In this document: one piece after another, positions 2,881 to 25,903 of the stretch | Position numbering within the stretch: position 1 is the first letter of the stretch | Layout of the letters: every line of letters begins with the position of its first letter | NCBI GenBank assembly: GCA_900543475.1 | Contig: UQRU01000016.1 | Location: 1 to 29,725, forward strand | From: an uncultured Eubacteriales bacterium | GTDB taxonomy: Bacteria > Bacillota > Clostridia > Christensenellales > CAG-138 | Length of the DNA stretch: 29,725 nucleotides | Direction: 5' to 3' | Notes under the pieces: generated by a model | The model's database searches: none | Told to the model about the DNA's origin: nothing | Seen by the model: only the letters and a program-made list of their open reading frames with translations | Position numbers and translations under genes: made by a program

Positions 2881-3627
2881 TTAGGTCACCTGCACAAAAT
2901 CTTCCACCGGTAAGGAAAAAACAATGGCCTTAGCCTCCGCCCGCAGGCCAAACCCCTGGTTGACAGCCTGCATGATGGGGAGCCGCTGTTCCGCAGGCGT
3001 TAGGATAGCCACGATCTCCTTGTCGGCCTGGAGGGTGATGCCAAGGAACCGGCTGGCGCCATCATGGCCGACTCCCCGGGCATAAATCACCGTGCCGCCT
3101 GTTGCGCCTGCGGCTTTTGCATGCTCCATGATCGCGTCAGTATAGCCGGGATTGGCAATGGCCAAAACAAGGCTGAGCCCTTCGGAACGATAGGGGTCCG
3201 ATCTGGGCGGCTGCGCCTCCTTTGCAGCCGGTTCCGCCGGCGGGGCGGCGATGGGCATTTCCTGTTCCATGGGTGCGTCCTCCTTTTCCGGGTCTTTTTC
3301 CATGCGTTGGGTCAGGGCGGCTTCAAATAAGGCGCCAATACCGCTTAAGGGCAGGGTAAAGGCAATACCCTTGCCGGCGGTGCGAATGAACCGGCGTCCG
3401 GCGATATCGCCTAACATATCCGGCAGATCCGCTGCGCTCACCAAAGAGAGCACCACGTCCTTATCCACGTTATCCAAGCCCAGCATAGCCATGATATCGC
3501 TGCCAGCGGTGCCAACCCCCATGGCGAGAAAGCTAGCCTGGTTATATTTTCGGTTCAAAAAGGCGGAGATCCCTTCGCCCTTTCCCCGATCCACAATGGT
3601 GATCAATGCCTTAACAGTAGGGTCCAT
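2881..3627 (-). CDS. Tandem P-II-like signalling protein
   Basis: Two P-II-like ferredoxin-fold domains in one chain of 248 aa. Domain 1 covers about residues 1-100 (VKALITIVDRGKGE near the start). Domain 2 covers about 150-248 and carries AGATGGTVIYARG, the usual region of the P-II T-loop and nucleotide site. The linker (about 108-150) is rich in Pro, Glu and Ala. The start at 3627 is chosen because AGGAGG lies 9 bases upstream and the preceding DUF1538 stop is 1 base away; an in-frame codon at 3663 would need a large overlap. P-II genes are known next to DUF1538 genes, so it probably senses a nucleotide or metabolite and controls that membrane protein (inference). Canonical P-II proteins are single domains of ~112 aa. 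Confidence 0.78.
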   Translation of the reverse strand: MDPTVKALITIVDRGKGEGISAFLNRKYNQASFLAMGVGTAGSDIMAMLGLDNVDKDVVLSLVSAADLPDMLGDIAGRRFIRTAGKGIAFTLPLSGIGALFEAALTQRMEKDPEKEDAPMEQEMPIAAPPAEPAAKEAQPPRSDPYRSEGLSLVLAIANPGYTDAIMEHAKAAGATGGTVIYARGVGHDGASRFLGITLQADKEIVAILTPAEQRLPIMQAVNQGFGLRAEAKAIVFSLPVEDFVQVT

Positions 3628-3628
3628 G

Positions 3629-5155
3629 TCACGCAGCCTCCTGCTGGTAATCGATAATGTCATCGGGTAGCGTATCTACGAACTGACGGGCGGCGGTCAC
3701 TGCGGCCATCCGGCGTTTATATATGAGGCCCAGGCCCTGTATGGTGATCAGTGGGGTCATGGCCACCATGGCAACCACGCCGAAAGCATCCGTGAGGATA
3801 TTTCCGCCCAGGCTCTGGCAAGCGCCCATGGCAAAGGGCAGCAAAAATGTGGCCGTCATGGGCCCGGACGCCACGCCGCCAGAGTCAAAGGCAATACCTG
3901 TAAAGATCCGGGGCACAAAGAAGCTGAGCAGGATGGCCGCCAAATAACCTGGAATTAGCATATAGAAAATGGATATGCCGGTCAACACCCGGGTCATTGC
4001 AAGGCCGGCGGATATCGCCACACCGATGGAAAGGCTGCGGTTCATGGCGGATTGTGGAACCGCACCGTTGGTGATCTCCTCTACTTGCTTGTTTAGCACA
4101 TGGACGGCGGGTTCCGCCATGACGATATAGTAGCCGATCAACATGCTCAAGGGGATCAGCAGCCATTTGTAGGGAGATGCCCCTAAGGCGACCCCCATAT
4201 AATTACCCGCAGGCAAAAAACCCACGTTTACCCCGCAGAGAAAGACCACCAGCCCCACATAGGTATAGGCGAATCCAATAAGGATGCTGGCTAGCTTCCG
4301 GCGGCGGAACCGGCGGGCTAAGAAATTGTATAGGAAAAACACCAGGGCAATGGGACCTACCGCCAAGGCCACCTCTCGGCAATAATGAGGGAAGGCATGG
4401 AGAAATTGCAAGGCCAATTCCCCGGTGGTGGAAATGGAGACAAGCGCATAGGTTTGAACCCCCGCGGAATCCGGGCGGAAGATGACCCCTAAAAGCATAA
4501 CGGAAAGGATGGGGCCGATGGAACATAGGGCAACCAGGCCAAAGGAATCATCGTGGCTATTTTTGTCGCTTCGGATGGAGGCGACGCCTATGCCTAGGGC
4601 TAAAATAAACGGCACGGTAATGGGGCCGGTGGTTACCCCGCCCGCATCAAAGGCAAGGGGGATAAACCTACCCGGCGTAAAGGCGGAAAGTAGAAAAACC
4701 AGCCCATAAAACCCCAACAACATAAACCGCAAAGGAACGTTGAACAGGATGCGCAGCATGGCCACCACCAGAAACACGCCAACGCCTACCCCTACGGTAA
4801 GCACCAGCACAAGGTTGGGGATATCGCTTACCTGTTCCGCCAGCACCTGCAAATCCGGCTCCGCAACGGTGATGATCAAGCCGATGAAAAAAGAAATGGC
4901 CAATACCAGCCCCACCTTTCGGGTGCGGGTCATGCTGACGCCAATGGCTTCGCCCATGGGGGACATGGCGATGTCCACCCCCAGCGAAAACAGGCCCATG
5001 CCTAAAATCAACAACACAGCCCCCCCGATAAACAACGCCATGATGTTCAAGGGGAGGGGCGCAAGGGAAAAGCTTAAAGCCAGAACGATCAACGTAATGG
5101 GGACCACGGAGGCCAAGGCTTCATGAATCTTTTCCTTTAAGAGAATACTTGCCAT
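3629..5155 (-). CDS. DUF1538 family integral membrane protein
   Basis: A 508-aa multi-spanning membrane protein, probably a transporter or channel; the substrate is unknown. It is an internal duplication with offset about 250 residues. AEPDLQVL (98-105) matches AEPAVHVL (347-354), FDAGGVTTGP (169-178) matches FDSGGVASGP (423-432), and DSFGLVAL (203-210) matches DAFGVVAM (456-463). The repeated acidic and GG motifs inside membrane segments suggest a pseudo-twofold pore. GGAGG lies 4-5 bases before the ATG at 5155. It is the first gene of a run with the P-II-like protein 1 base downstream, so stoichiometric coupling is likely. No clear sigma-A promoter was found upstream. Confidence 0.85.
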   Translation of the reverse strand: MASILLKEKIHEALASVVPITLIVLALSFSLAPLPLNIMALFIGGAVLLILGMGLFSLGVDIAMSPMGEAIGVSMTRTRKVGLVLAISFFIGLIITVAEPDLQVLAEQVSDIPNLVLVLTVGVGVGVFLVVAMLRILFNVPLRFMLLGFYGLVFLLSAFTPGRFIPLAFDAGGVTTGPITVPFILALGIGVASIRSDKNSHDDSFGLVALCSIGPILSVMLLGVIFRPDSAGVQTYALVSISTTGELALQFLHAFPHYCREVALAVGPIALVFFLYNFLARRFRRRKLASILIGFAYTYVGLVVFLCGVNVGFLPAGNYMGVALGASPYKWLLIPLSMLIGYYIVMAEPAVHVLNKQVEEITNGAVPQSAMNRSLSIGVAISAGLAMTRVLTGISIFYMLIPGYLAAILLSFFVPRIFTGIAFDSGGVASGPMTATFLLPFAMGACQSLGGNILTDAFGVVAMVAMTPLITIQGLGLIYKRRMAAVTAARQFVDTLPDDIIDYQQEAA

Positions 5156-8616: not shown

Positions 8617-8953
8617 ATATGGGAAAAAGGCCATGAAAATGTCGAAGAAACGGGGCGACATGGTAGCAACAAATGGGCCAAAACCGGCAGCTATCCATAT
8701 GGGGATTGGCGGGAAAGTTCGCCATGAGCCTGGGGCCCTTTAAGGAGCCTAAGCATAGGGGCGGAATATAGCTCCGCTTCTGAAAGCCGTTGCCGGGGAT
8801 GGAGCGAAGGTAGAAACACCTTCCATGTTGGAACCCCTTGCTGGAGCTGTATGAATGGCCGGAAGCGAAAGGCATTGCCCTTCCCGCCGACGGCAACGGT
8901 GCGGTAGCTGGCCCGGCGCAGAGCGGATAACAAGGGGAAACGAGGAGGCGCGC
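8617..8953 (+). other. Long untranslated stretch before the PucR-type regulator
   Basis: No gene with a ribosome site is seen in this ~340-base stretch. It contains short hairpins such as GCGGA/TCCGC near 8761-8775, but I do not recognise any riboswitch class. It may be a long leader, or decayed sequence linked to the block boundary. Confidence 0.35.
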
Positions 8954-10549
8954 ATGAGTGTAACGGTGGCGGATCTGTTGAATTTGCCTTCCCTGCGGCA
9001 GGCAAAGGTATTGGGCGGGCGAAATGGACTGGGGAAGATCGTTTCCTCTATTTCCGTATTGGAATCCGTGGACCCAGGAATCCTGATCGATCCCTTGTTT
9101 CCCCAGGGGGAATTTTACGGAAGCGAGATCGTGATTACCGGGTTTTTGAACTGCCGGGACGATGTCCAGCGGCAATGCGACAACCTGCGCCGCCTGGCGC
9201 AAGGCGGGGAAGTGGGGCTGATCCTCTATTATGTGGGGATCTATATGCCAAAGGTAGACCCTAAGCTCATTCAGCTGGCAGATGAATTGGATTTTGTGCT
9301 GATCTGTATGCCGGAAGGGGAACAGGCCCTTCGGTATGGGGAGGTGATCAACGATGTGACCGCCTGCATCTTCCGGGACCAGGCAAAGCAAAATTCCATC
9401 GTGTTGGACATCCTAGAACGGGTATCCGCCCTTCCGAAGCATCAGCAGTCCGTGAATACGGTGATGAAAATGCTCAGCGATCGGATATGCGCTACGGTGA
9501 TCCTGTGCGACGCAGCCTTTCACATTTTAAACCTGGTTACCTGGCCCCGCAGTACGGAAAACCGGATCAAGGAGGAGATGGAGCGCCTGCGGGCGTTTCC
9601 TTCCAGCGGGGGGAGCATCGCGTATCCCTTTGCCGGGGATTGCCGGCTGTACCGCAATGCCATCAAGACCGACAGCGGGCAAACCATGGAGTTATTGCTG
9701 CTCAAAGCAGGCTTGCCATTGGAAGCGGACGCCCTTTCCCAAATCGTGGATGCAGCAAGGATTTGCATCAACATTTGGGGTCGCAAGCACGGGGAGGTGG
9801 CCATCCATGAACTGGTACGGGCCATTTTGCAGGACGAGCCTATGAAGATGTACCGCCTGGCGGAGATCTTTCACATCGATATTGCCGCCATCCATGAAAT
9901 GTGGATTCTGGATAGTGGCCAGACCAAGGAGGCGACGGCCTACAAGGAACAGCTGGCCTGGGTAAAGGAATATCTATCCGGCTTCAAGGGGACGTTTGTG
10001 GCGGATATCTATGGGGAGCGGCTATTGTTGTTCCTGAGCACGCCGCCTTCCTTACAGGAGGCGGAGCAGATGCTTATGGACATCCTGAAAGGGGTTGCCC
10101 AGCAGGACGCCAACGCTACCTTGACCCGCTGCAGCCAGCTTATGACCACGGGGGATGTGCGGGCGGCATACCAAACCTATAAGGAACATCTAGGGGATGC
10201 CCGGAAGATCTTTCCCCTGCAGCGGATCTTTACAGGCGGGGATATGGAATTTGTCTCCCATTGCCGGCAGCTGATCCAGAAGGACGAGGCAGGGGTAAAG
10301 CAATGCCTGGCGCCGCTGGCGTATCTGCAAAAGGACGACGATGAGATGAACCTGCAAAAGACGCTGGCGGTATTTTTACTGGATGGGGCGTCCAGCGTAA
10401 CAAAAACCGCGCAGCTTTTATACTTGCATAAAAACACGGTAAAATATCGAATCAAGCGCATCGCGGACCTGTTGGGCTATCATCCCGGCAAGATGCCGGA
10501 GGCGGCTGCCCTGTATCAGGCGGTAGCAGTACAGCGCCTGCTCAATTGA
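8954..10549 (+). CDS. PucR family transcriptional regulator
   Basis: A 531-aa regulator. The N-terminal PucR/PurC-like domain (about residues 1-125, starting VTVADLLNLPSLRQAKVL) precedes a long middle region. The C-terminal HTH of the PucR type is TAQLLYLHKNTVKYRIKRI, about 50 residues before the end. The family controls purine, allantoin and related nitrogen-ring catabolism and often responds to pathway intermediates. GAGGAGG sits 6-7 bases before the ATG at 8954; reading further upstream gives arginine-rich non-conserved sequence. It is transcribed in the same direction as the permease-DUF917-HyuA genes but is separated from them by a strong terminator, so it probably acts as their separately expressed regulator (inference). 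Confidence 0.9.
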   Translation: MSVTVADLLNLPSLRQAKVLGGRNGLGKIVSSISVLESVDPGILIDPLFPQGEFYGSEIVITGFLNCRDDVQRQCDNLRRLAQGGEVGLILYYVGIYMPKVDPKLIQLADELDFVLICMPEGEQALRYGEVINDVTACIFRDQAKQNSIVLDILERVSALPKHQQSVNTVMKMLSDRICATVILCDAAFHILNLVTWPRSTENRIKEEMERLRAFPSSGGSIAYPFAGDCRLYRNAIKTDSGQTMELLLLKAGLPLEADALSQIVDAARICINIWGRKHGEVAIHELVRAILQDEPMKMYRLAEIFHIDIAAIHEMWILDSGQTKEATAYKEQLAWVKEYLSGFKGTFVADIYGERLLLFLSTPPSLQEAEQMLMDILKGVAQQDANATLTRCSQLMTTGDVRAAYQTYKEHLGDARKIFPLQRIFTGGDMEFVSHCRQLIQKDEAGVKQCLAPLAYLQKDDDEMNLQKTLAVFLLDGASSVTKTAQLLYLHKNTVKYRIKRIADLLGYHPGKMPEAAALYQAVAVQRLLN

Positions 10550-10766
10550 CGATGGCCTGGGCCCTTGTTTGACAGGACAAAGCCGAAACTCGGAGAAATC
10601 GCCTGGCGCCAGGTCGTTTCCGCATCGCCCGGGCCATGGACAAAGGCGCGTGGCTCCAGGCGGAGACGGCGCGCTCCCAGGCGCGGCTGCAAGCGCGTTG
10701 TGCCATGGGGCAGCCGGTTACGCCCTGGTAAAAGGTTTTTTTTGAATTTATTACAGCCAGCAGGAT

Positions 10767-10808
10767 GGGTTCCTTGTCCAAAAGGACAAGGAACCCCCTT
10801 TCTTTTTC
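10767..10808 (+). terminator. Terminator after the PucR-type regulator
   Basis: A 13-bp perfect stem (10767-10779 with 10784-10796, GGGTTCCTTGTCC and its complement) with an AAAA loop, followed by a pyrimidine/T-rich run (CCTTTCTTTTTC). It lies 220 bases after the regulator stop. The intervening 10550-10766 stretch shows no gene. Confidence 0.75.
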
Positions 10809-10822
10809 TGCCCTTACACCAA

Positions 10823-10851
10823 TTCACCTTTGTTGTGTAACGCAGTAAAAT
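10823..10851 (+). promoter_or_regulatory. Candidate promoter of the permease-DUF917-HyuA operon
   Basis: TTCACC (10823-10828), 17 bases and TAAAAT (10846-10851) give a promoter with a weak -35 and good -10. The inferred start is near 10858, with a 63-base leader. The weak -35 fits a regulated promoter. Confidence 0.5.
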
Positions 10852-10888
10852 GCAAGGGTATGCTGTCGGAATAAATCTTTCACCTTTG
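10823..10888. repeat. Direct repeat TTCACCTTTG in the permease promoter
   Basis: The 10-mer TTCACCTTTG occurs at 10823-10832, covering the -35, and again at 10879-10888, about 21 bases past the inferred start; the two are 56 bases apart. A 9-base inverted pair, TTTTCTGCC (10804-10812) and GGCAGAAAA (10891-10899), encloses the same region. This could be a pair of operators for the PucR-type protein. Confidence 0.45.
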
Positions 10889-10920
10889 CCGGCAGAAAAG
10901 CAATCATCCGGAGGTATCCT

Positions 10921-12264
10921 ATGCGCGAAACAAACACAGCCAAAGAGGCAAAAACCACCCAACAGGATAAGGGCATTTCCCAGATCCTGAGCAGTGAAAA
11001 GCGAACCTGGATCAGCGTGGCGTTCATCTGGATCGGCACCATGATCTGCATCCCGATGCTGATGGTAGGCGGCCTGTTTGCCAGCTCCCTTACCATGGGC
11101 TCCATCTTTTGGGCAACGGTGATCGGCTTTGCGATCTGCTGCCTGCTGATGGTGCTGGGCGGCATTATCGGCAGCGATCTGGGACTCAATGCCACCATGT
11201 GCTCCACCCGAGCCTTCGGCATGTCCGGCGCGAATTTCTCCATGGCGCTGGTGGTGTTCATTGCAGAGGCGGGCTGGTTTGCCGTGCAGACAGCCACCTG
11301 CGCCTTGGCTTTTAACACGCTTATGAGCCTGTTTGGCGTCGCATTTCCCTTCTGGCTCTCCTGCACCATCTGGGGCGTTGTGATGTTTATCACGGCGGTC
11401 TATGGTGTGAAATGGATGGCCGTGCTGAACTACATTGCCGTCCCCTTGTTGATCCTCTTGTGCGCCTATGGCTGCATCCACGCCCTGGACATGAGCGGAT
11501 GGGCCAGCATTTCCTCCACGGTAACGGAAAACCAGATGGGAATGCCCGCCGCCATCTCCACAGTCATCGGCCTGTTTGCCCTGGGCGCTACCTGCAACTC
11601 GGACTATACCCGGTATCTGCGTACGCGGGCGGATGTGGTAAAAGCCACGGTGATCGGCGTTCTGCCCGCCGCGACCTTTATGATCATGGTTGGGGCGATC
11701 ATGGCCTTGGGTACCGGCAATTACGATGTGACCGCCATATTTGCCAATCTGGGGATGCCCTTTATCGCCATGCTGGTGCTGATCCTGGCTACCTGGACCA
11801 CCAATACGGGCAATGCCTATATGTCCGGCTTGGCTGTATGTAAGATGTTTTCCATCAAGGATAAAGACCGGCCCAAGGTGACCATGGGCGTGGGCGTAGT
11901 CGGGGTTATTTTGGCCATTCTGGGTTTGGCGGATTTCCTCAACACCTACATCAGCATCATCGGCGCTGTGGTGCCCCCCATCATGGGCATCGTCATAAGC
12001 GATTACTGGGTAATCTGCAAGGCGGATAAAACGGCCTGGCTCCCCCGGCGGGGTACGAACTGGGTCGGGATCATCGCCTGGGTCCTGGGCGGCAGCTTTG
12101 CCTTGCTGGAGACCCTGGGCGTGCTACAGGTATTCAGCCCGGCGCTGGACGGCGTGGTGATCTCCTTTGTGGCCTATGCTGTGCTTTACAAAGCTCTGGA
12201 AAAGACGCCGCTGATCGGCCAGGGGGATATGACCATAGAGGAAGCTACGGCTTCGGCAAAATAA
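10921..12264 (+). CDS. NCS1-family cytosine/hydantoin-type permease
   Basis: A 447-aa polytopic inner-membrane protein with about 12 hydrophobic segments, similar to CodB and other nucleobase:cation symporter-1 transporters. Typical features are the early SISVAFIWIG-like first helix region (here WISVAFIWIGTMICIP), the AEAGWFAVQTATCALAF stretch and the STVIGLFALGATCNSDYTRY segment in the middle. NCS1 members move cytosine, purines, allantoin, thiamine or hydantoins. The downstream hydantoinase-like genes point to a ring compound of the hydantoin type (inference). GGAGG (10910-10914) lies 6 bases before the ATG. It is the first gene of a three-gene operon; the next starts 10 bases after its stop. 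Confidence 0.88.
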   Translation: MRETNTAKEAKTTQQDKGISQILSSEKRTWISVAFIWIGTMICIPMLMVGGLFASSLTMGSIFWATVIGFAICCLLMVLGGIIGSDLGLNATMCSTRAFGMSGANFSMALVVFIAEAGWFAVQTATCALAFNTLMSLFGVAFPFWLSCTIWGVVMFITAVYGVKWMAVLNYIAVPLLILLCAYGCIHALDMSGWASISSTVTENQMGMPAAISTVIGLFALGATCNSDYTRYLRTRADVVKATVIGVLPAATFMIMVGAIMALGTGNYDVTAIFANLGMPFIAMLVLILATWTTNTGNAYMSGLAVCKMFSIKDKDRPKVTMGVGVVGVILAILGLADFLNTYISIIGAVVPPIMGIVISDYWVICKADKTAWLPRRGTNWVGIIAWVLGGSFALLETLGVLQVFSPALDGVVISFVAYAVLYKALEKTPLIGQGDMTIEEATASAK

Positions 12265-12274
12265 GGAGAAGGAC

Positions 12275-13372
12275 ATGAGAAAAATCGGCATCAAAGAGAT
12301 TGAAGATATCGCTCTAGGCGCCGCGCTTCTAGGAGCCGGCGGCGGCGGGGACCCTTATATTGGCAAGCTGGTGGCCATGGGCGCCATACAGGAATGCGGC
12401 GAAGTGACCCTATTGGACCCCACGGAGTTGTCGGATGACGCCCTGGTCGTGCCCATCGCCATGATGGGGGCGCCTACCGTACTGGCGGAAAAGGGGATCG
12501 GCGGCCAGGAATATCAAACCCTGCATGAGATGGTATCCCAGTTTTTCGGCAAAAAGATCGATGCCTTTTTGCCCATTGAGGCAGGCGGGGTAAATTCCAT
12601 GCTCCCCATCGCTGCCTGCGCAAGGCTGGGGTTGCCCCTGGTGGATGCGGACGGCATGGGCCGCGCCTTCCCGGAACTGCAAATGGTCACCTTTACCATT
12701 GGCGGCTGCAGCGCTACGCCCATGGCCCTTACGGACGAAAAGGGGAACTGCGTCATCTTCCGCACCATTACCAACAAATGGACCGAGGAACTGGCCCGGG
12801 CGGTCACCATGAGCTGCGGCGGCGCAGTATCCGTCGCCCTGTACCCCATCAGCGGGGCCCAGCTGAAACAATACGGGGTGAAGAATATCGTCACCCGTAG
12901 CCAAAAGTTGGGCGAGGCCATACGCACCGTAAAGAATTGCGGAAAAGACGAAACGCCGGAATCCCACTTTCTGTCCTTCTCCGAGGGCTACAAGCTCTTT
13001 AAAGGAAAGATTACGGACGTGCTGCGGGAGACCCGGGGCGGGTTCAACTTCGGCAAAGTGGTGCTGGAGGGCATCGGGGAATGCAAGGGCCGGCAGGCAT
13101 TTGTGGAATTCCAGAACGAAAACCTGTGCGCAACGGTAGACGGGAAGATCGTAGCCACTACGCCGGACCTTATCTGCCTGGTAGATACGGAAACCTTTAT
13201 CCCCGTGACAACGGACGGGCTTAAATACGGCAAGCGGGTGCTAGTAGTTGGGCTAAAATGCTTTGAAATGTGGCGGACCCAGGCGGGGCTTGACCTGGTG
13301 GGACCCCAGTACTTTGGGTTGGATACGCCGTATATCCCCCTGGAGGAGCGCTGCGAAGGAGGAATAGCATGA
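12275..13372 (+). CDS. DUF917 / S-methyl-thiohydantoin desulfurase-like protein
   Basis: A 365-aa cytoplasmic protein of the DUF917 family, which (from memory) Pfam now describes as S-methyl thiohydantoin desulfurase N- and C-terminal domains. The N-terminal GAALLGAGGGGDPYIG is the family hallmark. Further conserved segments are IEAGGVNSMLPIAACARLGLP and DADGMGRAFPELQM. AAGGAG lies 6 bases before the ATG. The stop overlaps the HyuA start (ATGA), so the two proteins are translationally coupled and probably act together. DUF917 proteins often sit beside or are fused to HyuA-type proteins. The reaction is not established for most members; desulfuration or opening of a hydantoin-like ring is inference. 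Confidence 0.88.
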   Translation: MRKIGIKEIEDIALGAALLGAGGGGDPYIGKLVAMGAIQECGEVTLLDPTELSDDALVVPIAMMGAPTVLAEKGIGGQEYQTLHEMVSQFFGKKIDAFLPIEAGGVNSMLPIAACARLGLPLVDADGMGRAFPELQMVTFTIGGCSATPMALTDEKGNCVIFRTITNKWTEELARAVTMSCGGAVSVALYPISGAQLKQYGVKNIVTRSQKLGEAIRTVKNCGKDETPESHFLSFSEGYKLFKGKITDVLRETRGGFNFGKVVLEGIGECKGRQAFVEFQNENLCATVDGKIVATTPDLICLVDTETFIPVTTDGLKYGKRVLVVGLKCFEMWRTQAGLDLVGPQYFGLDTPYIPLEERCEGGIA

Positions 13373-14940
13373 TGTACAAGCTGGGCGTAGACGTGGGTGG
13401 CACCAACACGGACGCGGTGCTCATCGATGAAAATTTACAAGTGGTAGCGGATATAAAATATCCCACCTCCGGGGATGTATACGAGGGAATCCTCTGCGCT
13501 GTCCGGGAGGTACTGCGGGTATCCGGGATCGATAAAACCAAGATCCGCCAGGCAATGCTGGGCACCACCCAATGCACCAACGCCATTGTGGAGCGGAAAA
13601 ATCTGGCGCCCATCGGCATTCTCCGGCTGGGTGCGCCGGCCACAATGGCCGTCCGTCCCATGCTGGACTGGGCAGAGGATATCCAAGGGATCGCCGTAGG
13701 CAGCAAGATCATCGGCGGAGGCTTCGAGCATGACGGCAAGGAACTGGCGCCCTTTGACCGAGAGGCGGCCCGAGCCTTCTTCCAGGAGATGCGGGAAAAG
13801 GGCGTCAAATCCATGGCCATTTCCAGCGTATTCTCCACCGTGCGCAACGACCAGGAGCTGGAAGCAGCAAAGCTGTGCCGGGAAGTGATGGGGCCGGATG
13901 TACATGTATCCATTTCCAGCGAGATCGGCTCTATGGGCCTGATCGAGCGGGAAAACGCCACCATCTTGAACGCCGCCCTTTGGCAGGTGGCAGACCGGTT
14001 TACCGAAGGGTTTGCAAAGAGCCTGGCGGAGGAAGGGATCACCAACGCAGATATCTACCTTAGCCAGAACGACGGCACCTTGATGACCATGGAGCATGCG
14101 CGGCGGTATCCCATCCTCACCGTTGCCTGCGGCCCCACCAACTCCATACGCGGGGCCAGCTATCTAAGCAAGCTGAAAAACGCCATCGTGATCGACGTGG
14201 GCGGCACCACAACGGATCTGGGGGCGATCCAGAACGGATTCCCCCGGGAGTCCAGCGTGGCAGTTACCATAGGCGGGGTGCGCACCAATTTCCGCATGCC
14301 GGATGTGATCTCCATTGGTCTAGGGGGCGGCTCCATCGTGCGGCAAAAGCCGGATGGAAGCGTTACGGTAGGGCCGGACAGCGTGGGCTATGCCATAACC
14401 AGCAAGGCGCTGATCTTCGGCGGCGATACCCTCACCGCTACGGACATCGCAGTGCGGCTGGGCATGGTGACGTTGGGAGACCCTGCCCGGGTACAGCATA
14501 TTCCTCTGGACTTAGCCCAGAAGGCCATGCAGGTCATCACGACGCTGGCGGAGGATTTCATTGACGCCATGAAGGTGTCCAACCAGGACAGCGACGTTAT
14601 CTTGGTGGGCGGCGGCTCCATCATCTTGCCGGAGAAGCTGGCGGGCGCTGCTTCGGTGATCAAGCCGGCCCATTTTGGCTGCGCCAACGCCATTGGTTGC
14701 GCCATTTCCAAGGTGAGCGGCACTTATGAGCGGCTGATCAATTACGATGAGATCCCCCGGGAGCAGGCCCTGGCCAAGGCCAAGGCGGAAGCGGTGGAGC
14801 TGGCGGTAACAGCCGGCGCCATACGGGAAACGGTGGAGATCATCGAGGTGGAGGATGTGCCGCTGCAATATTATGCAGGCCATACCAGCCGGGTGAAGAT
14901 CAAGGCGGCAGGGGACCTGCAAAGCATCTGTCCTTCATAA
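13369..14940 (+). CDS. Hydantoinase/oxoprolinase family protein (HyuA-type)
   Basis: A 523-aa ATPase-like subunit of the hydantoinase/5-oxoprolinase family. It has two ASKHA-type phosphate motifs: DVGGTNTDAVL near residue 10, and DVGGTTTDLGAI near 275. The order is Hydant_A_N then Hydantoinase_A. It lacks the extra C-terminal region of long HyuA proteins, and no HyuB gene follows. It belongs to the shorter form seen with DUF917 partners. AAGGAGG lies 6 bases before ATG 13369 (a second ATG follows at once). The known family reaction is ATP-dependent opening of 5-oxoproline or N-methylhydantoin rings. The substrate here is unknown. Confidence 0.9.
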   Translation: MMYKLGVDVGGTNTDAVLIDENLQVVADIKYPTSGDVYEGILCAVREVLRVSGIDKTKIRQAMLGTTQCTNAIVERKNLAPIGILRLGAPATMAVRPMLDWAEDIQGIAVGSKIIGGGFEHDGKELAPFDREAARAFFQEMREKGVKSMAISSVFSTVRNDQELEAAKLCREVMGPDVHVSISSEIGSMGLIERENATILNAALWQVADRFTEGFAKSLAEEGITNADIYLSQNDGTLMTMEHARRYPILTVACGPTNSIRGASYLSKLKNAIVIDVGGTTTDLGAIQNGFPRESSVAVTIGGVRTNFRMPDVISIGLGGGSIVRQKPDGSVTVGPDSVGYAITSKALIFGGDTLTATDIAVRLGMVTLGDPARVQHIPLDLAQKAMQVITTLAEDFIDAMKVSNQDSDVILVGGGSIILPEKLAGAASVIKPAHFGCANAIGCAISKVSGTYERLINYDEIPREQALAKAKAEAVELAVTAGAIRETVEIIEVEDVPLQYYAGHTSRVKIKAAGDLQSICPS

Positions 14941-20403: not shown

Positions 20404-21150
20404 TTATTGATATTCCGCCACATCCACCCAGGAAAGCAGGAATTCCCGCTCCTGGGGCTTACCCTTCACGGACTGGGACGCGGCTACGATGGGGAGCCAG
20501 CGCTCCACATATTGCCGGGCGGTGTCGCTCTTCTTGCAGAAGAGGTTCAGGTACTTCTTCGCCCCATCGATATCCCCGTTTAGCCAGAACAGAAGATACG
20601 TCCGGGCCACGTCCGCGGAGGCGTTGCCCTGGGTGGCATGGGACCAATCCAGAATGTAGGGGCCGTTCTCCGACATGATGATGTTGGAGGGGTTGAAATC
20701 CCCGTGGCAGACCTTGTTGTGGTGGGGAGTGGAGTCCAACCGGGTGTGCAGTTCATACCGGGTGGTGGCGTCCAAGCCCGTTTCGTCGATCTTGCGCTTC
20801 ATCTTATCGTGCAATTTATTGAGCAGAGGCGCACGGTGGGTATGGACATCCATTTGCAGATCCACAAACTGCTCCAAATATGCGTCCTTTTCCTGGGGAT
20901 TTTCCTCCATTAGCTGGGCCAGGGTCTTGCCGGGGATGTATTCGGATACGATGGCCCATTTGCCGTCGATCACGGACACCTCCAATACCTTGGGGACCCG
21001 AATGCCAGCTTCCTCCACACGGGCCTGGTTCAGGGCCTCGTTAAGGATATCCGACTTGGAAAAGTTGGCGTCAAATACCTTGATCGCCTTGTCGCCATCC
21101 CGATAGACGGTCTTGTTGTTGCGTACCGCAATTACACGTTCCAGATTCAT
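20404..21150 (-). CDS. Aminoglycoside phosphotransferase (APH)-fold kinase
   Basis: A 248-aa protein-kinase-like small-molecule kinase. The ATP-binding lysine is K24 (AIKVFD), the catalytic loop is HGD-x4-N (149-156, CHGDFNPSNI), and the metal-binding aspartate is D168 (ILDWSHA). It lacks the features of known aminoglycoside resistance enzymes and resembles the clostridial APH-family proteins of unknown substrate (TIGR02172-like). AAGGAGG lies 6 bases before the ATG. It is 15 bases after adhE, inside the operon that begins with a SpoIIE-type phosphatase. A kinase and a phosphatase in one redox operon suggest opposing phosphorylation of a small molecule or protein (inference). Confidence 0.82.
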   Translation of the reverse strand: MNLERVIAVRNNKTVYRDGDKAIKVFDANFSKSDILNEALNQARVEEAGIRVPKVLEVSVIDGKWAIVSEYIPGKTLAQLMEENPQEKDAYLEQFVDLQMDVHTHRAPLLNKLHDKMKRKIDETGLDATTRYELHTRLDSTPHHNKVCHGDFNPSNIIMSENGPYILDWSHATQGNASADVARTYLLFWLNGDIDGAKKYLNLFCKKSDTARQYVERWLPIVAASQSVKGKPQEREFLLSWVDVAEYQ

Positions 21151-21165: not shown

Positions 21166-23787
21166 TTAAACGGGTTCATGGGTGCCGTAATAGGCGTTCA
21201 GGTACATCTGCCGCATCTCATTCATGAGGGGATAACGGGGGTTGGCGCCGGTGCATTGATCGTCAAAGGCCTGCTCCACCATCTCATCCAGCCTGGCCAG
21301 GAAGTCCGCCTCGTCGATGCCATAATCCCGGATGGTCTTTTTGATGCCGACCCGGGCCTTCAGGTCGTTGATGGCCTGGATCAGGTTCTCCAGCTTCTCC
21401 TCCTGGGTGCTGCCCCCCAGGCCCAGGTAGTCCGCAACCTCGCAGTACCGGGCCAGGGTATGGGGGTATGCGTACTGGGAGAAGGTACCCATCTTCGGCG
21501 GCGCTTCCACCGCGTTGAAGCGGATGACTTCCTCGATCATCAGGGCGTTGGCTACGCCGTGGGGCAGGTGATGGAAGGCGCCCAGCTTATGGGCCAGGGA
21601 GTGGCACACCCCCAGGAAGGCGTTGGCAAAGGCCATGCCCGCCATGGTGGCGGCGTTGGCCATCTTTTCCCGGGCCTCCGGGTCGTTCTGGCCGTTGTCA
21701 TAGGCCCGGGGCAGGTATTCGAAGATGGTCTTGAGGGAGCGCAGGGCCAGGCCGTCGGTATAATCCGTGGCCAGCATGGCGGCGTAGGCTTCCAGATCGT
21801 GGGTCACCGCATCGATGCCGGAGGCGGCGGTAAGGCCCTTGGGGGCGCTCATGTGCAGATCCGCGTCCACGATGGCCATGTTGGGCATCAGCTCATAGTC
21901 GGCCAGGGGGTATTTCACGCCGGACTGCTCGTCGGTGATCACCGCGAAGGGGGTCACCTCGGAACCGGTGCCCGCGGAGGTGGGGATGGCCACAAAGTAG
22001 GCCTTTTCGCCCATCTTGGGGAAGGTGTAGACCCGCTTGCGGATATCCACAAAGCGCATGGCCATATCCATGAAGTCCGCTTCGGGATGCTCGTACATGA
22101 CCCACATGATCTTGGCCGCGTCCATGGCGGAGCCGCCGCCCAGGGCGATGATCACATCCGGCTCAAAGGCGCGCATCTGCTGGGCGCCCTCCTTGGCGCA
22201 GGCCAGGGTGGGATCCGGCTCCACGTTGAAGAAGCAGGCGTGGGCGATGCCCATTTCATCCAGCTTGTCGGTGATGGGCTTGGCAAAGCCACTCTTATAG
22301 AGGAAGGAGTCCGTCACCAGGAAGGCGCGGCGCTTGCCCATGACCGTCTTGAGTTCGTCCAGGGCCACAGGCAGGCAGCCCTTCTTGATATAGACCTTTT
22401 CCGGCACCCGGAACCAAAGCATATTTTCCCTCCTTGCAGCAACGGTCTTAATGTTCAAAAGGTGCTTGACGCCCACGTTTTCGGAAACGCTGTTCCCGCC
22501 CCAGGAGCCGCAGCCCAGGGTGAGGGAGGGGGCCAGCTTGAAGTTATACAGGTCGCCGATACCGCCTTGGGCGGAGGGAGTGTTCACCAGGATCCGGCAG
22601 GTCTTCATCCGGGCAGCGAAATCGTGGAGCTTTTCCTGCTGGGTAATGGGGTTCAGGTACACCGAAGCAGTATGGCCATAGCCGCCGTCCGCCACCAGGC
22701 GCTCCGCCTTATCCAGGGCCTCGTTGAAATCCGCAGCCCGGTACATGGCCAATACGGGGGAGAGCTTTTCGTGGGCAAACTCTTCGGAAAGCTCCACGCT
22801 CTCCACCTCGCCGATGAGGATCTTGGTGCCTTCCGGCACCGAGACCCCGGCCAGCTTGGCGATGGTACAGGCGCTCTGGCCTACGATTTTGGCATTGAGG
22901 GCGCCGTTGATGAGGATGGTCTTACGCACCTTGCGCAGCTCGTCCTCCTGGAGGAAGTGGCAGCCCCGGGCGGCAAATTCCGCCTTCACCCCGGCGTATA
23001 CGCTATCCACGGCGATGACGGACTGCTCGGAGGCGCAGATCATGCCGTTGTCAAAGATTTTGGAATGGATAATGGAGTTGACGGCAAGGCGGATATCCGC
23101 GCTATCGTCGATGATGGCGGGGGTATTGCCGGGGCCAACGCCCAGGGCGGGCTTGCCGCTGGAATAGGCTGATTTTACCATGCCGGGGCCGCCGGTGGCA
23201 AGGATGAGATCCGATTCCCGCATGACGGTGGTGGTAAGATCCAGGGAGGGCACGTCGATCCAGTCGATGATGCCTTCCGGGGCGCCGGCGGCCACAGCGG
23301 CCTCCAGCACGATACGGGCTGCGGCGATGGTGCTGTTTTTTGCCCGGGGATGGGGGCTGATGATGATGCCGTTGCGGGTCTTGAGGCACAGGAGGGTCTT
23401 GAAGATGGCGGTGGAGGTGGGGTTGGTGGTGGGGATCACCGCGGCGATGACGCCCACAGGCTCCGCGATCTTCATGATGCCGTAGGCCTTATCCTCTTCG
23501 ATGACGCCGCAGGTCTTGGTGTGCTTATAGGCGTTGTAGATGTACTCTGCGGCATAGTGGTTCTTAATGACCTTATCTTCCACCACGCCCATGCCGGTTT
23601 CCTCCACAGCCATTTTGGCCAGGGGGATACGGGCCTTGTTGGCGGCGGTAGCGGCAGCCAGGAAGATCCGGTCTACCTGCTCCTGGGAATAGGTGGCAAA
23701 GACCGCTTGGGCCCGGCGGACCCGGGCGAATGCCGCTTCCAGGGTCTCCAGGCTGTCCACAAGGGGATACTGTACGTTGCTGTCCAT
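21166..23787 (-). CDS. adhE: Bifunctional acetaldehyde-CoA/alcohol dehydrogenase
   Basis: An 873-aa enzyme converting acetyl-CoA to acetaldehyde and then ethanol with two NADH. The N-terminal aldehyde dehydrogenase domain (1-~440) has catalytic C251 in NGMICASEQ. The linker has the ENMLWFRVPEKVY hallmark. The C-terminal iron-dependent alcohol dehydrogenase domain shows GGGSAMDAAK, the metal-binding DAVTHDLEAY region and the histidine-rich FLGVCHSLAHKLGAFHHLPHG region. Length matches AdhE, which forms spirosomes in other bacteria. AGGAGG lies 7 bases before the ATG. It is the second gene of a four-gene operon, 72 bases after the phosphatase. It would regenerate NAD+ during fermentation. No clear Rex site lies directly upstream. 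Confidence 0.97.
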   Translation of the reverse strand: MDSNVQYPLVDSLETLEAAFARVRRAQAVFATYSQEQVDRIFLAAATAANKARIPLAKMAVEETGMGVVEDKVIKNHYAAEYIYNAYKHTKTCGVIEEDKAYGIMKIAEPVGVIAAVIPTTNPTSTAIFKTLLCLKTRNGIIISPHPRAKNSTIAAARIVLEAAVAAGAPEGIIDWIDVPSLDLTTTVMRESDLILATGGPGMVKSAYSSGKPALGVGPGNTPAIIDDSADIRLAVNSIIHSKIFDNGMICASEQSVIAVDSVYAGVKAEFAARGCHFLQEDELRKVRKTILINGALNAKIVGQSACTIAKLAGVSVPEGTKILIGEVESVELSEEFAHEKLSPVLAMYRAADFNEALDKAERLVADGGYGHTASVYLNPITQQEKLHDFAARMKTCRILVNTPSAQGGIGDLYNFKLAPSLTLGCGSWGGNSVSENVGVKHLLNIKTVAARRENMLWFRVPEKVYIKKGCLPVALDELKTVMGKRRAFLVTDSFLYKSGFAKPITDKLDEMGIAHACFFNVEPDPTLACAKEGAQQMRAFEPDVIIALGGGSAMDAAKIMWVMYEHPEADFMDMAMRFVDIRKRVYTFPKMGEKAYFVAIPTSAGTGSEVTPFAVITDEQSGVKYPLADYELMPNMAIVDADLHMSAPKGLTAASGIDAVTHDLEAYAAMLATDYTDGLALRSLKTIFEYLPRAYDNGQNDPEAREKMANAATMAGMAFANAFLGVCHSLAHKLGAFHHLPHGVANALMIEEVIRFNAVEAPPKMGTFSQYAYPHTLARYCEVADYLGLGGSTQEEKLENLIQAINDLKARVGIKKTIRDYGIDEADFLARLDEMVEQAFDDQCTGANPRYPLMNEMRQMYLNAYYGTHEPV

Positions 23788-23859: not shown

Positions 23860-25038
23860 TTAGAAGTAGCTGACCCGGATCTTCTTGCCCATTTCCTCCA
23901 GGCATTTACTCAGCTCGTCCACCAGCCGCATCTTGATGCTGAAACTGATGGGCAGGTTAGGGTTCTGGTGGGCGGCATTGACGGCCCGGCCCACATAGAA
24001 GTTAATGTCTGTAGCCTCCTGGAAAAGCATACGGGCGATTTGGGAGGCGCCGTCCATCCTGCTGCACCATTCCCCATAGCGGGCGTTGTCCTTAAGGTAA
24101 TCTTGGGCGTATTCCAGCACCCGGTTGATGGTGATGACCCCTTCTGTGGCCAGGTCCACCCCCTCGATGGAAGCGGTAGGCGGGATCTCCGGGTCCAGAT
24201 ATAAGGGCATGGCCACGGTCAGAGGCTTGCCCAGATGCTCTGCGGCCAGGGTGGAGGTGGTGCCGCCGCAGACGATGTGCTTGCCCGCCTTGGCAAAGAA
24301 CAGGCTAAGCATCTTATTTACATCCGCCGGGTCTGTGGGAGGGCCAAAGAGCAGGTTGACCGGGTTCCGCTGCCGGATCTTCACGGTGCAGACCGTGGCG
24401 TCGTCCCCAGGTTCCCCGCCATAGAGCTGCTCGCATTGGCTGATCAGCATGGCGGAAAGGGTCTTTGCCGTCAAGGCGGGATCATAGTTCTCCTCTAAAA
24501 AGGCAGTCGCATTGGGAAGCTGCCAGCCAAAGTTCAGCTTGGGCCCCACCCCTGCATGGATGACCCCGTCGCTGACCGCTACAAAGGTATCCCCTTCCCG
24601 CAGCCGGACATGGGATTGGGCCACCGTTTTGCCATCGATGATCCGCTCCGTAATGGGGTAGGGGGTGCCTTTCCCGTCCCGCAGCAGGATCACCCGGGGA
24701 TTATCGTATTGGATGATCTCCGCTTCCAGGCTGGCGGTGACCCGCAGGATGGTGAAGGTAGAATAGGCGACCCCCCGCACCTTGCAGATGGGCAGAGTCT
24801 TGGCAATGGCCTGCACGCAATCCTCTAAGGGCAGGTCGTTGGCCATCATGGTGGAAATGATCTTGGCGGTGAGGGTGGAAAGGATGCTGGCTTTTACGCC
24901 GCTACCCAATCCATCCGCCAGCACCAGCACCAGGGAATCCCCGCCGTCCTGCTCCACCAATTCCACATGGTCGCCGCAAAGCTGTTCGCCAATATGGTTG
25001 ATGCTGACATAACCCACATCCGTGCAAAGTTCCTTCAT
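23860..25038 (-). CDS. SpoIIE-family (PPM) serine phosphatase with extra C-terminal domain
   Basis: A 392-aa protein with a PPM/SpoIIE-type phosphatase core at 1-~222. The metal-binding aspartates are D23 (CGDHV), D42 (ADGLGSG), D157 (VSDGVI) and D212/D213 (GDDATV). No membrane segment is present, so it is not the sporulation SpoIIE. Residues ~230-392 form a further domain I cannot name, with a CGGTTS motif (about 258-263) and a long helical end. Similar phosphatases sit with NuoE-like [2Fe-2S] proteins and [FeFe] hydrogenases in Clostridia (from memory). It is the first gene of the adhE operon. GAGGT about 6 bases before the ATG is a moderate ribosome site. Target unknown. Confidence 0.85.
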   Translation of the reverse strand: MKELCTDVGYVSINHIGEQLCGDHVELVEQDGGDSLVLVLADGLGSGVKASILSTLTAKIISTMMANDLPLEDCVQAIAKTLPICKVRGVAYSTFTILRVTASLEAEIIQYDNPRVILLRDGKGTPYPITERIIDGKTVAQSHVRLREGDTFVAVSDGVIHAGVGPKLNFGWQLPNATAFLEENYDPALTAKTLSAMLISQCEQLYGGEPGDDATVCTVKIRQRNPVNLLFGPPTDPADVNKMLSLFFAKAGKHIVCGGTTSTLAAEHLGKPLTVAMPLYLDPEIPPTASIEGVDLATEGVITINRVLEYAQDYLKDNARYGEWCSRMDGASQIARMLFQEATDINFYVGRAVNAAHQNPNLPISFSIKMRLVDELSKCLEEMGKKIRVSYF

Positions 25039-25096
25039 GCTAGACCTCGCTGCACCTCCGGCCCGACAAGGCCGCCTCCCCTGATTTTTCGATAAT

Positions 25097-25102
25097 ATTG
25101 TA
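25097..25102 (-). promoter_or_regulatory. -10 element of the phosphatase-adhE operon
   Basis: The minus strand reads TAG-TACAAT (hexamer 25102-25097), with no acceptable -35 17 bases upstream (TCCCCC there). The inferred start is near 25090, giving a leader of ~51 bases. The missing -35 suggests activator dependence. Confidence 0.5.
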
Positions 25103-25141
25103 CTATAGGAGAGGCGGTAGGGGGAAAGATAAAATGGGAAT

Positions 25142-25189
25142 ATCGATATTCTGATATCGATAGAAATACATCGTTATTTTTATAACGAT
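25142..25189. promoter_or_regulatory. Twin 20-bp palindromic operator ATCGnTAT-N4-ATAnCGAT
   Basis: Two perfect palindromes share one pattern: 25142-25161 (arms ATCGATAT/ATATCGAT, spacer TCTG) and 25170-25189 (arms ATCGTTAT/ATAACGAT, spacer TTTT). Their centres are 28 bases apart. They lie in an AT-rich gap (25039-25346, no gene) upstream of the SpoIIE-type phosphatase and centre at about -61.5 and -89.5 of its inferred start. The pattern is not one I recognise. Confidence 0.6.
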
Positions 25190-25298
25190 TTGACTTACAT
25201 TTTTATTGCCAGTGGAAAAAGCCTATATGCAGCCGCTGCTGACATATAAAATATAACATAAAAAAATATATATTAAAATATGTTTCTCCTTACCCAAT

Positions 25299-25327
25299 AA
25301 AAAAGCTGCTCCCACAATGGAAGCAGC
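25299..25327 (-). terminator. Terminator of the lipoprotein gene
   Basis: On the minus strand GCTGCTTCC (25327-25319) pairs with GGGAGCAGC (25313-25305), one T-G pair, followed by TTTTTT. It starts 20 bases after the lipoprotein stop. Confidence 0.82.
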
Positions 25328-25346
25328 GATCCAAAGCCCGCAGGCA

Positions 25347-25844
25347 TTATGATACCGGCGTTACTTGGATGGTATCCAGGACCTGAGAGAAGGTGGGACG
25401 CAGCCCATCAAAATCGTCTTGGGGGGCTGCGCAGCATACACAGTAGATATGGGAAGGGGTATAAGCGATATATAATTCATTATACCAGGTAACGCCGTCC
25501 TGTTCCCCGGTGTAGCTTACTTTCGCCCAGTTGTAGCCCGCCATTTCCTCTTGGGAGATATCCAAAACCTGTGCGTCGGGGATCCCCCAGGTAAAGGCCT
25601 GGATGAAGATCTCCAACATACCCGACTGGGCCAGATAATCCTCGCTGGGGTTTGGCTGATAGGAAAGGTAAATCATTCCTCCATCCGGGGAATAGAAAAA
25701 ATATTGATCCAGATCTGCCTCCACCGGCGAGACCTGCCAACGAGGGGGGATCTCCAACTGTAACTCAGCGGAAGTATATACCGTGGGCCCAGCGCAGCCA
25801 GCAAAGAGAAGCAGGCAAACCAGAACAAGGATCAGCCGTTTCAT
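25347..25844 (-). CDS. Putative lipoprotein
   Basis: A 165-aa exported protein with a lipoprotein signal: basic MKR, a hydrophobic stretch (LILVLVCLLL) and lipobox LFAGC with the acylated Cys at 17. The mature part is a soluble alpha/beta domain with several aromatic residues (about WYNELYIAY) and two adjacent cysteines (VCC). I do not recognise the family. ATG 25844 (MKRL) is favoured over ATG 25853, since GAGG is only 2 bases from the latter. It is monocistronic. It is divergent from spoIIP across 226 bases. Confidence 0.72.
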   Translation of the reverse strand: MKRLILVLVCLLLFAGCAGPTVYTSAELQLEIPPRWQVSPVEADLDQYFFYSPDGGMIYLSYQPNPSEDYLAQSGMLEIFIQAFTWGIPDAQVLDISQEEMAGYNWAKVSYTGEQDGVTWYNELYIAYTPSHIYCVCCAAPQDDFDGLRPTFSQVLDTIQVTPVS

Positions 25845-25874
25845 ACTATTCATTACCTCATATTGTATAGAATT

Positions 25875-25903
25875 GGCGGCGCGCCGCCCACATCAGCATT
25901 ATA
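25875..25903 (-). promoter_or_regulatory. Lipoprotein promoter with an adjacent 14-bp GC palindrome
   Basis: The minus strand has TATAAT (25903-25898) with a poor -35. The inferred start is near 25891. The perfect palindrome GGCGGCGCGCCGCC (25875-25888) falls at about +3 to +16, where a repressor operator or leader hairpin would act. Confidence 0.4.

Follow-up and report, generated by a model that had tools for sequence, protein, structure and literature searches.

Which protein binds the pair of palindromes in front of the phosphatase-adhE operon, and does it turn the operon on or off? The window (the whole stretch of 29,725 bases that was analysed) contains two exact matches to ATCGnTAT-N4-ATAnCGAT, at 25142-25161 and 25170-25189. 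An earlier note on this DNA had reported both as perfect palindromes, and exact matching confirms them. Not one of 100 dinucleotide shuffles of the window contains an exact match. With up to three mismatches the window holds three matches, a number equalled by 2 of 100 dinucleotide shuffles.

A refined motif, ATCGATA-N6-TATCGAT (14 letters), resolves three copies on a 14-bp grid, which score 14, 12 and 12; no strand is assigned to any of them. The promoter-proximal copy (25142..25161) matches at 14/14 and is centred at about -61.5 from the inferred start. The middle copy (25156..25175) is weaker, at 12/14, and has half-sites in common with both neighbours. The distal copy (25170..25189) also scores 12/14 on the refined motif, yet is a perfect palindrome. 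The two outer copies are 28 bp apart and form a non-overlapping pair. Outside the three grid copies, nothing in the window scores 11/14. Two other readings of the palindromes were dropped: an RNA element, because Rfam finds none in the window at the gathering threshold, and a terminator, because a scan of 24950-25900 returned the hairpin of the upstream gene alone.

The palindromes sit between two groups of minus-strand genes. Upstream lies a gene of unknown family (25347-25853). Downstream runs a series that begins with a SpoIIE-family protein phosphatase (23860..25038, minus strand; Pfam PF07228), the first gene of the operon, followed by adhE, encoding a bifunctional acetaldehyde-CoA/alcohol dehydrogenase (21166..23787, minus strand; NF010378 at 1388 bits, and Pfam), and an APH/RIO1-like kinase gene (20404..21150, minus strand; Pfam). 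A consensus scan places a terminator-like hairpin behind the upstream gene, on the minus strand at 25305..25327 (one found, against 1.2 expected by chance). Hence, the phosphatase-adhE operon probably needs a promoter of its own here.

The candidate -10 element of this promoter is TACAAT (25097..25102, minus strand), 39 nt downstream of the proximal operator. TATAGT, which overlaps it, is an alternative candidate, and relatives favour the position of TACAAT. Provided that TACAAT (25102-25097) is the -10 in use, the operators are centred at -61.5, -75.5 and -89.5. The first and last of these values had been derived before with the same hexamer as a ruler, and they hold for the inferred start. 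It was also fair to say that the promoter has no -35: the best hexamer near that position is TTCCCC (3/6 match, spacer 18). The -10 is not extended, since TAG precedes it.

To find relatives of the locus, the window phosphatase was searched against genome contigs, and the best 80 of 137 loci were kept (top identity 71%). A number of these best 80 contain the motif, and at several of them an adhE or Fe-ADH match follows it closely. In Pelolinea submarina (L048) the motif is followed first by the gene of a 217-aa protein with both Rex domains. Its operon runs rexB-adhE-APH kinase-PAS [FeFe] hydrogenase-SpoIIE phosphatase-[FeFe] hydrogenase, and the APH-family gene after adhE is similar to the window kinase gene. 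A relative of the Rex-family protein occurs in 40 of the best 80 phosphatase loci, one of them partial. Rex is an NADH-sensing repressor of fermentation genes. We coined the name RexB for the divergent Rex-family protein found here. The Pelolinea copy scores above the cut-off for PF06971 (Rex winged-helix N-terminal) and for PF02629 (NAD-binding CoA_binding), and the best PDB match of RexB is a Rex (3wg9, E 1.1e-36). The phosphatase itself has more than 8000 relatives; in the window it stands directly before adhE.

We searched for further RexB proteins in the class of G002 (292 genomes), the order of G005 (295), the phylum of G001 (151) and the order of G014 (197, genomes that repeat those of G005's order), adding at most the 30 best-scoring loci per search. 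In the phylum of G001 (151 genomes) the only match was in Pelolinea itself; 59 of the 295 genomes in the order of G005 have a match at 1e-45. The resulting RexB set comprises 94 unique genes from best-scoring loci, with at least 43% identity to the Pelolinea copy, and the canonical Rex set 16 unique genes with less than 40%. rexB genes that start inside the match (L065, L118) were left out of the extraction. In a quick tree, with SH-aLRT support only, a branch with support 100 separates the RexB rows from 21 canonical rows, among them five solved structures. The nucleotide-binding motif GxGxxG and the Asp that follows it are invariant in the 94 RexB rows. RexB is present in 11 of the 15 genomes that were examined first, and canonical Rex accompanies it in 9 of these 11. 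Judged by its sequences, RexB is a divergent clade of the Rex family and not canonical Rex.

No rexB is present among the window genes. Of 77 hand-chosen genomes, the nearest by the GPR protein is G734 (L001), at 67%, followed by G735 (L003), at 59%. G734 has rexB and a single site, which precedes the -10 of an nfnA-like gene by 38 nt; G798 and G807, relatives of G734, have the same site and the same spacing before that gene. In G735 there is no RexB at the cut-off used. A rexB gene in the window's own genome is plausible.

What would RexB do at this promoter? We consider it probable that the palindromes are a RexB operator array and that RexB, bound at -61.5, activates phosphatase-adhE. RexB, presumably encoded elsewhere in the genome, would bind the 20-bp sites as a dimer. 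Bound to the copy at -61.5, it would sit immediately upstream of RNA polymerase, on a promoter whose -35 is poor. From there RexB would touch the alpha subunit of the polymerase, in the class I mode, and so most likely raise transcription of phosphatase-adhE. The signal may be NAD(H); our guess is that the operon is on at high NADH.

Arrays of this kind also occur in relatives. Among 55 rexB promoters, 30 have a second copy (at least 10/14) 14 bp upstream of the best one, and 23 of 54 have one 14 bp downstream. Second copies at shifts other than 14 and 28 amount to 0.2%. Neighbouring copies in an array have one half-site in common. Adjacent dimers should thus exclude each other, and every second copy can be filled.

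The case for activation starts from distance, since -61.5 is the classic class I position of Crp/Fnr-type activators. We assembled 80 non-redundant array-gene pairs from 67 arrays (13 on both strands), the window included, in which the array lies outside long reading frames and the facing gene has a ribosome-binding-site-like stretch. Sites inside reading frames of at least 150 aa were not counted as promoters. Eight sites in the nearest genome's family were lost to this crude filter, among them L257, which is identical with L001:3098, where the promoter was read by hand.

Measured from the end of the site, -10-like hexamers (5/6) occur 21 times at 38 nt and 13 times at 39 nt in the 80 pairs. 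The next peaks, at 10 nt and -15 nt, have 12 and 8 hexamers, and no other offset exceeds 7. Distances of 38 and 39 nt correspond to site centres of -60.5 and -61.5 and account for 34 of the 80 array-gene pairs, the window being at 39. The spacing to which the earlier note had attached meaning is thus a recurrent one. It persists when similar spacers are grouped, for which 78 pairs had enough sequence: with groups below 60% spacer identity, 15 (38 nt) and 7 (39 nt) of 62 fall at this distance, against a mean of 0.95 at the other offsets from 12 to 74 nt, and with a looser grouping 7 and 3 of 49, against 0.9. In rexB promoters alone a -10 lies at 37-40 nt in 27 of 55, or in 15 of 38 protein clusters.

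The same spacing is found at Fe-ADH promoters (L004, L005, L042, L069, L090, L203), at PAS-hydrogenase promoters with a leader of about 370 nt (L013, L015), at the nfnA-like gene (L001) and at adhE genes (L166, L211, L213, L245). Judging by -10 boxes, about half of the promoters keep a fixed distance near -61.5 from their inferred starts. The window, with TACAAT at 39 nt and a -35 of 3/6, is a member of this group. Among class I-spaced promoters an extended -10 (TGn) occurs in 22 of 36, and the -35 is often TTtACA or TTcACA.

Some observations speak against activation. At four rexB promoters with class I spacing the -35 is a perfect TTGACA, so that no activator is needed. The consensus G at the third base of the -35 is present in 7 of 36 class I-spaced promoters, which is the random share; the G is hence not selected, and its absence from 29 of 36 is no more than random. 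Finally, the -10 of the window is not of the extended type.

A second architecture complicates the picture. In 17 of the 55 rexB promoters the array lies over a TTGACA-type promoter, 27 have the 37-39-nt layout and 11 have neither. On the RexB tree the two layouts require at least 7 changes. L005 and L069 have both, an overlapping type at a rexB or LysR gene and a 38-nt type at an Fe-ADH promoter, which fits an activator that would also repress other promoters. In the family of the nearest genome we examined 18 further pairs that had not been used in forming the idea: 3 are at 38 nt, two of them homologous, and several others have a -10-like hexamer inside the site. A site over a TTGACA promoter looks like repression.

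Overlapping-type rexB-adhE operons also exist (L012), and they do not fit one NADH polarity. Activation from class I sites combined with repression from overlapping ones would leave adhE without a single NADH polarity that suits both groups. The suggestion that the palindromes bind an activator stands in part: the position recurs, but in other lineages the same site is in a repressor position, and activation is read from position.

More tentatively, and with rather less than even confidence, we extend the proposal to RexB as a whole. It would be a Rex-family activator with a new operator code; at ethanol, H2 and NADPH-linked genes it would act from -60.5/-61.5, by way of RNA polymerase. From overlapping sites it would repress other promoters, in some species its own, and its NAD(H) switch would be altered (Asp/His to Asn).

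Alternatively, RexB could repress from -61.5, contacting or blocking the alpha subunit, so that the promoter stays off until NADH rises. GalR, at -60.5 on galP1, is such a repressor upstream of the -35. Promoters with overlapping sites occur in the same RexB clade, the consensus TTGACA of four class I-spaced rexB promoters agrees with repression, and a single, canonical Rex polarity would then suit adhE in all lineages. The available portions of three papers also describe Rex proteins as repressors (PMC8457756, PMC8836258, PMC8376106). However, the class I-spaced promoters often have an extended -10 (22/36) and, like activator-dependent promoters, are not selected for the -35 G (present in 7/36), and a repressor should seldom need a fixed distance. 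We regard repression from -61.5 as unlikely, yet as a reading to be taken seriously.

Activation and repression by RexB both presuppose that the sites belong to RexB. Of the 94 rexB genes, 55 have a site of at least 12/14 in the 500 bp upstream; of the 16 canonical rex genes, none has. Where at least 300 bp are available the count is 53 of 92 (Fisher 9e-6, uncorrected for kinship). A regulator gene with the motif in its own promoter, as the earlier note had envisaged, is thus present in relatives. For the remaining 39 of 94 rexB genes the 500 bp upstream contain no good site. In two of these misses (G049, G185) an array lies about 1.3 kb upstream, before the Fe-ADH gene that precedes rexB.

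Sites and RexB also tend to occur in the same genomes. In the class sample a one-mismatch match is found in 17 of 25 RexB genomes (at least 46% identity, counted by hand) and in 74 of 267 others (p 1e-4). Such one-mismatch scans are noisy, a reversed control pattern matching many genomes as well; we therefore rely on the rexB upstream regions and the offsets instead. In the family of the nearest genome 9 of 24 RexB genomes and 7 of 57 others have an exact match to the relaxed pattern (p 0.014). Of these 7 site-bearing genomes without RexB, 6 have the fetched match inside a reading frame of at least 150 aa. In the seventh, G778, the site precedes a PAS-hydrogenase gene and no RexB was found. 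G009 has sites, one of them before a PAS-hydrogenase gene (L015), and no Rex-family gene was found in it.

These exceptions count against the RexB reading and leave some room for an unrelated regulator whose regulon merely takes in rexB and adhE: a few genomes (G009, G778) have sites without any RexB, and 39 of 94 rexB genes have no near site. Against such a regulator are the link to the clade (55/94 versus 0/16), the co-occurrence at class level (17/25 versus 74/267 genomes) and the Rex-box register of the site with its matching protein changes, described below. We consider it improbable.

The motif recurs in Clostridia before rexB, adhE, Fe-ADH, nfnA-like and [FeFe]-hydrogenase genes. By this recurrence the palindromes are a conserved operator, and the idea of a regulon for redox or ethanol metabolism is borne out in that the motif marks redox, ethanol and H2 genes. 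Matches in L083, L088 and L099 were set aside, as they look like chance occurrences inside genes. At L001:3098 and L255 the site stands at the 38-nt spacing before the nfnA-like gene, so named because of a DHODB Fe-S domain in L255, suggesting that NADPH/ferredoxin balance may be part of the RexB regulon. In Lachnotalea glycerini a site (L093:1487-1520) precedes NuoE/NuoF-like genes (Pfam), possibly an electron-bifurcating hydrogenase operon.

How does the site compare with a Rex box? The Asp191 region of Rex takes part in the NADH switch. At the position of T. maritima Asp191, 96% of RexB rows have Asn and 94% of canonical rows His. As far as the accessible part of PMC8836258 goes, Arg48 of T. 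maritima Rex reads Gua5 of a 22-bp operator and Lys49 helps to read Ade8. Counted from the dyad, these bases are positions 7 and 4. In a profile of 88 sites, picked by motif likeness, G is at position 7 in 84 and A at position 4 in 82, and all 94 RexB rows have Arg48-Lys49.

The wing is different. In T. maritima Rex the wing residues Arg60 and Gly61 contact Thy4 and Thy3, that is positions 8 and 9 (PMC8836258, accessible part). None of the 94 RexB rows has an Arg60-Gly61 wing of this type: residue 60 is Pro in 94/94 and residue 61 Lys or Arg in 98%. Position 8 of the site is C, whereas it is T in the T. maritima operator. The changed outer base appears to go with the changed wing, as a correlation. 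The half-sites TTGTGAA and TTGTTAA of the canonical Rex operator do not occur in the motif, where the half-site is ATCGATA. The palindrome thus appears to be of the Rex operator type, in a new letter code. The earlier note did not recognise the motif as Rex. This holds for the known TTGTTAA/TTGTGAA sequence but not for the family, given the Rex-box geometry and the linked Rex-family gene.

In a RexB subclade with the wing SCAGKPK (L062, L063, L064, L067, L070), ATCAATAC-N4-ATACTGAT-like sites replace ATCGATA. They lie about 50 bp upstream of rexB and are possibly a further operator code.

A Crp/Fnr-type activator, suggested by the classic class I position of -61.5, is very improbable and was dropped, since the sites are directly followed by the gene of a divergent Rex-family regulator (by Pfam annotation at a few loci only) and the palindrome has Rex-box geometry. 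The class I activators of this type share with the RexB promoters a site centre of -60.5/-61.5 upstream of a weak -35; RexB is another protein family with another site sequence.

Canonical clostridial Rex is the closer comparison. Like RexB it combines a winged helix with an NAD(H)-binding domain, has alcohol and hydrogen targets and is autoregulated. Its operator, TTGTTAA-N4-TTAACAA in the available part of PMC8457756, is likewise a palindrome with a 4-bp centre and the same recognition register. In contrast, RexB has the half-site ATCGATA instead of TTGTTAA, overlapping 14-bp arrays and a frequent -60.5/-61.5 position. Its wing is Pro-Lys/Arg and not Gln/Arg-Gly, its recognition helix has Lys49 where Gln is mostly found, and its switch residue is Asn and not His or Asp.

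C. thermocellum has a second, divergent Rex, Rex_1799 / Cthe_0422, with 36 and 34% identity to characterised Rex (PMC8457756). Rex_1799 is probably a RexB. Going by locus numbers, we take its gene to adjoin adhE. The available part of PMC8457756 gives a motif for Rex_2471, which matches TTGTTAA, and none for Rex_1799; it also states that activation by Rex is a suggestion still to be demonstrated. In the literature searched, mostly outside subscription papers, we found no mention of ATCGATA as a Rex site.

As a clade with a separate operator, present together with canonical rex in 9 of the 11 RexB genomes examined first, RexB would give Clostridia a second redox circuit, for ethanol and hydrogen. 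RexB-type promoters make activation by Rex directly testable. The ATCGATA code may also allow adhE and hydrogenase regulons to be called where the TTGTTAA motif finds nothing.

HydS of Ruminococcus albus, a putative H2-sensing [FeFe] hydrogenase, bears a PAS domain like the hydrogenase beside the phosphatase in L048 and L013. H2-sensing control has been proposed for the HydS system (Zheng et al., as cited in the accessible part of PMC5707799), whereas the link here is a Rex-family DNA site. In L048 and L013 the SpoIIE phosphatase gene is flanked on both sides by [FeFe]-hydrogenase genes; no hydrogenase was recognised in the window proteins that were scanned.

Elsewhere in the window a DUF1538 gene adjoins the gene of a P-II-domain protein (2881-5155). 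Consecutive genes at 8855-14940 encode a PucR regulator, a cytosine/purine permease, S-Me-THD and hydantoinase A, likely a cluster for purine or hydantoin utilisation.
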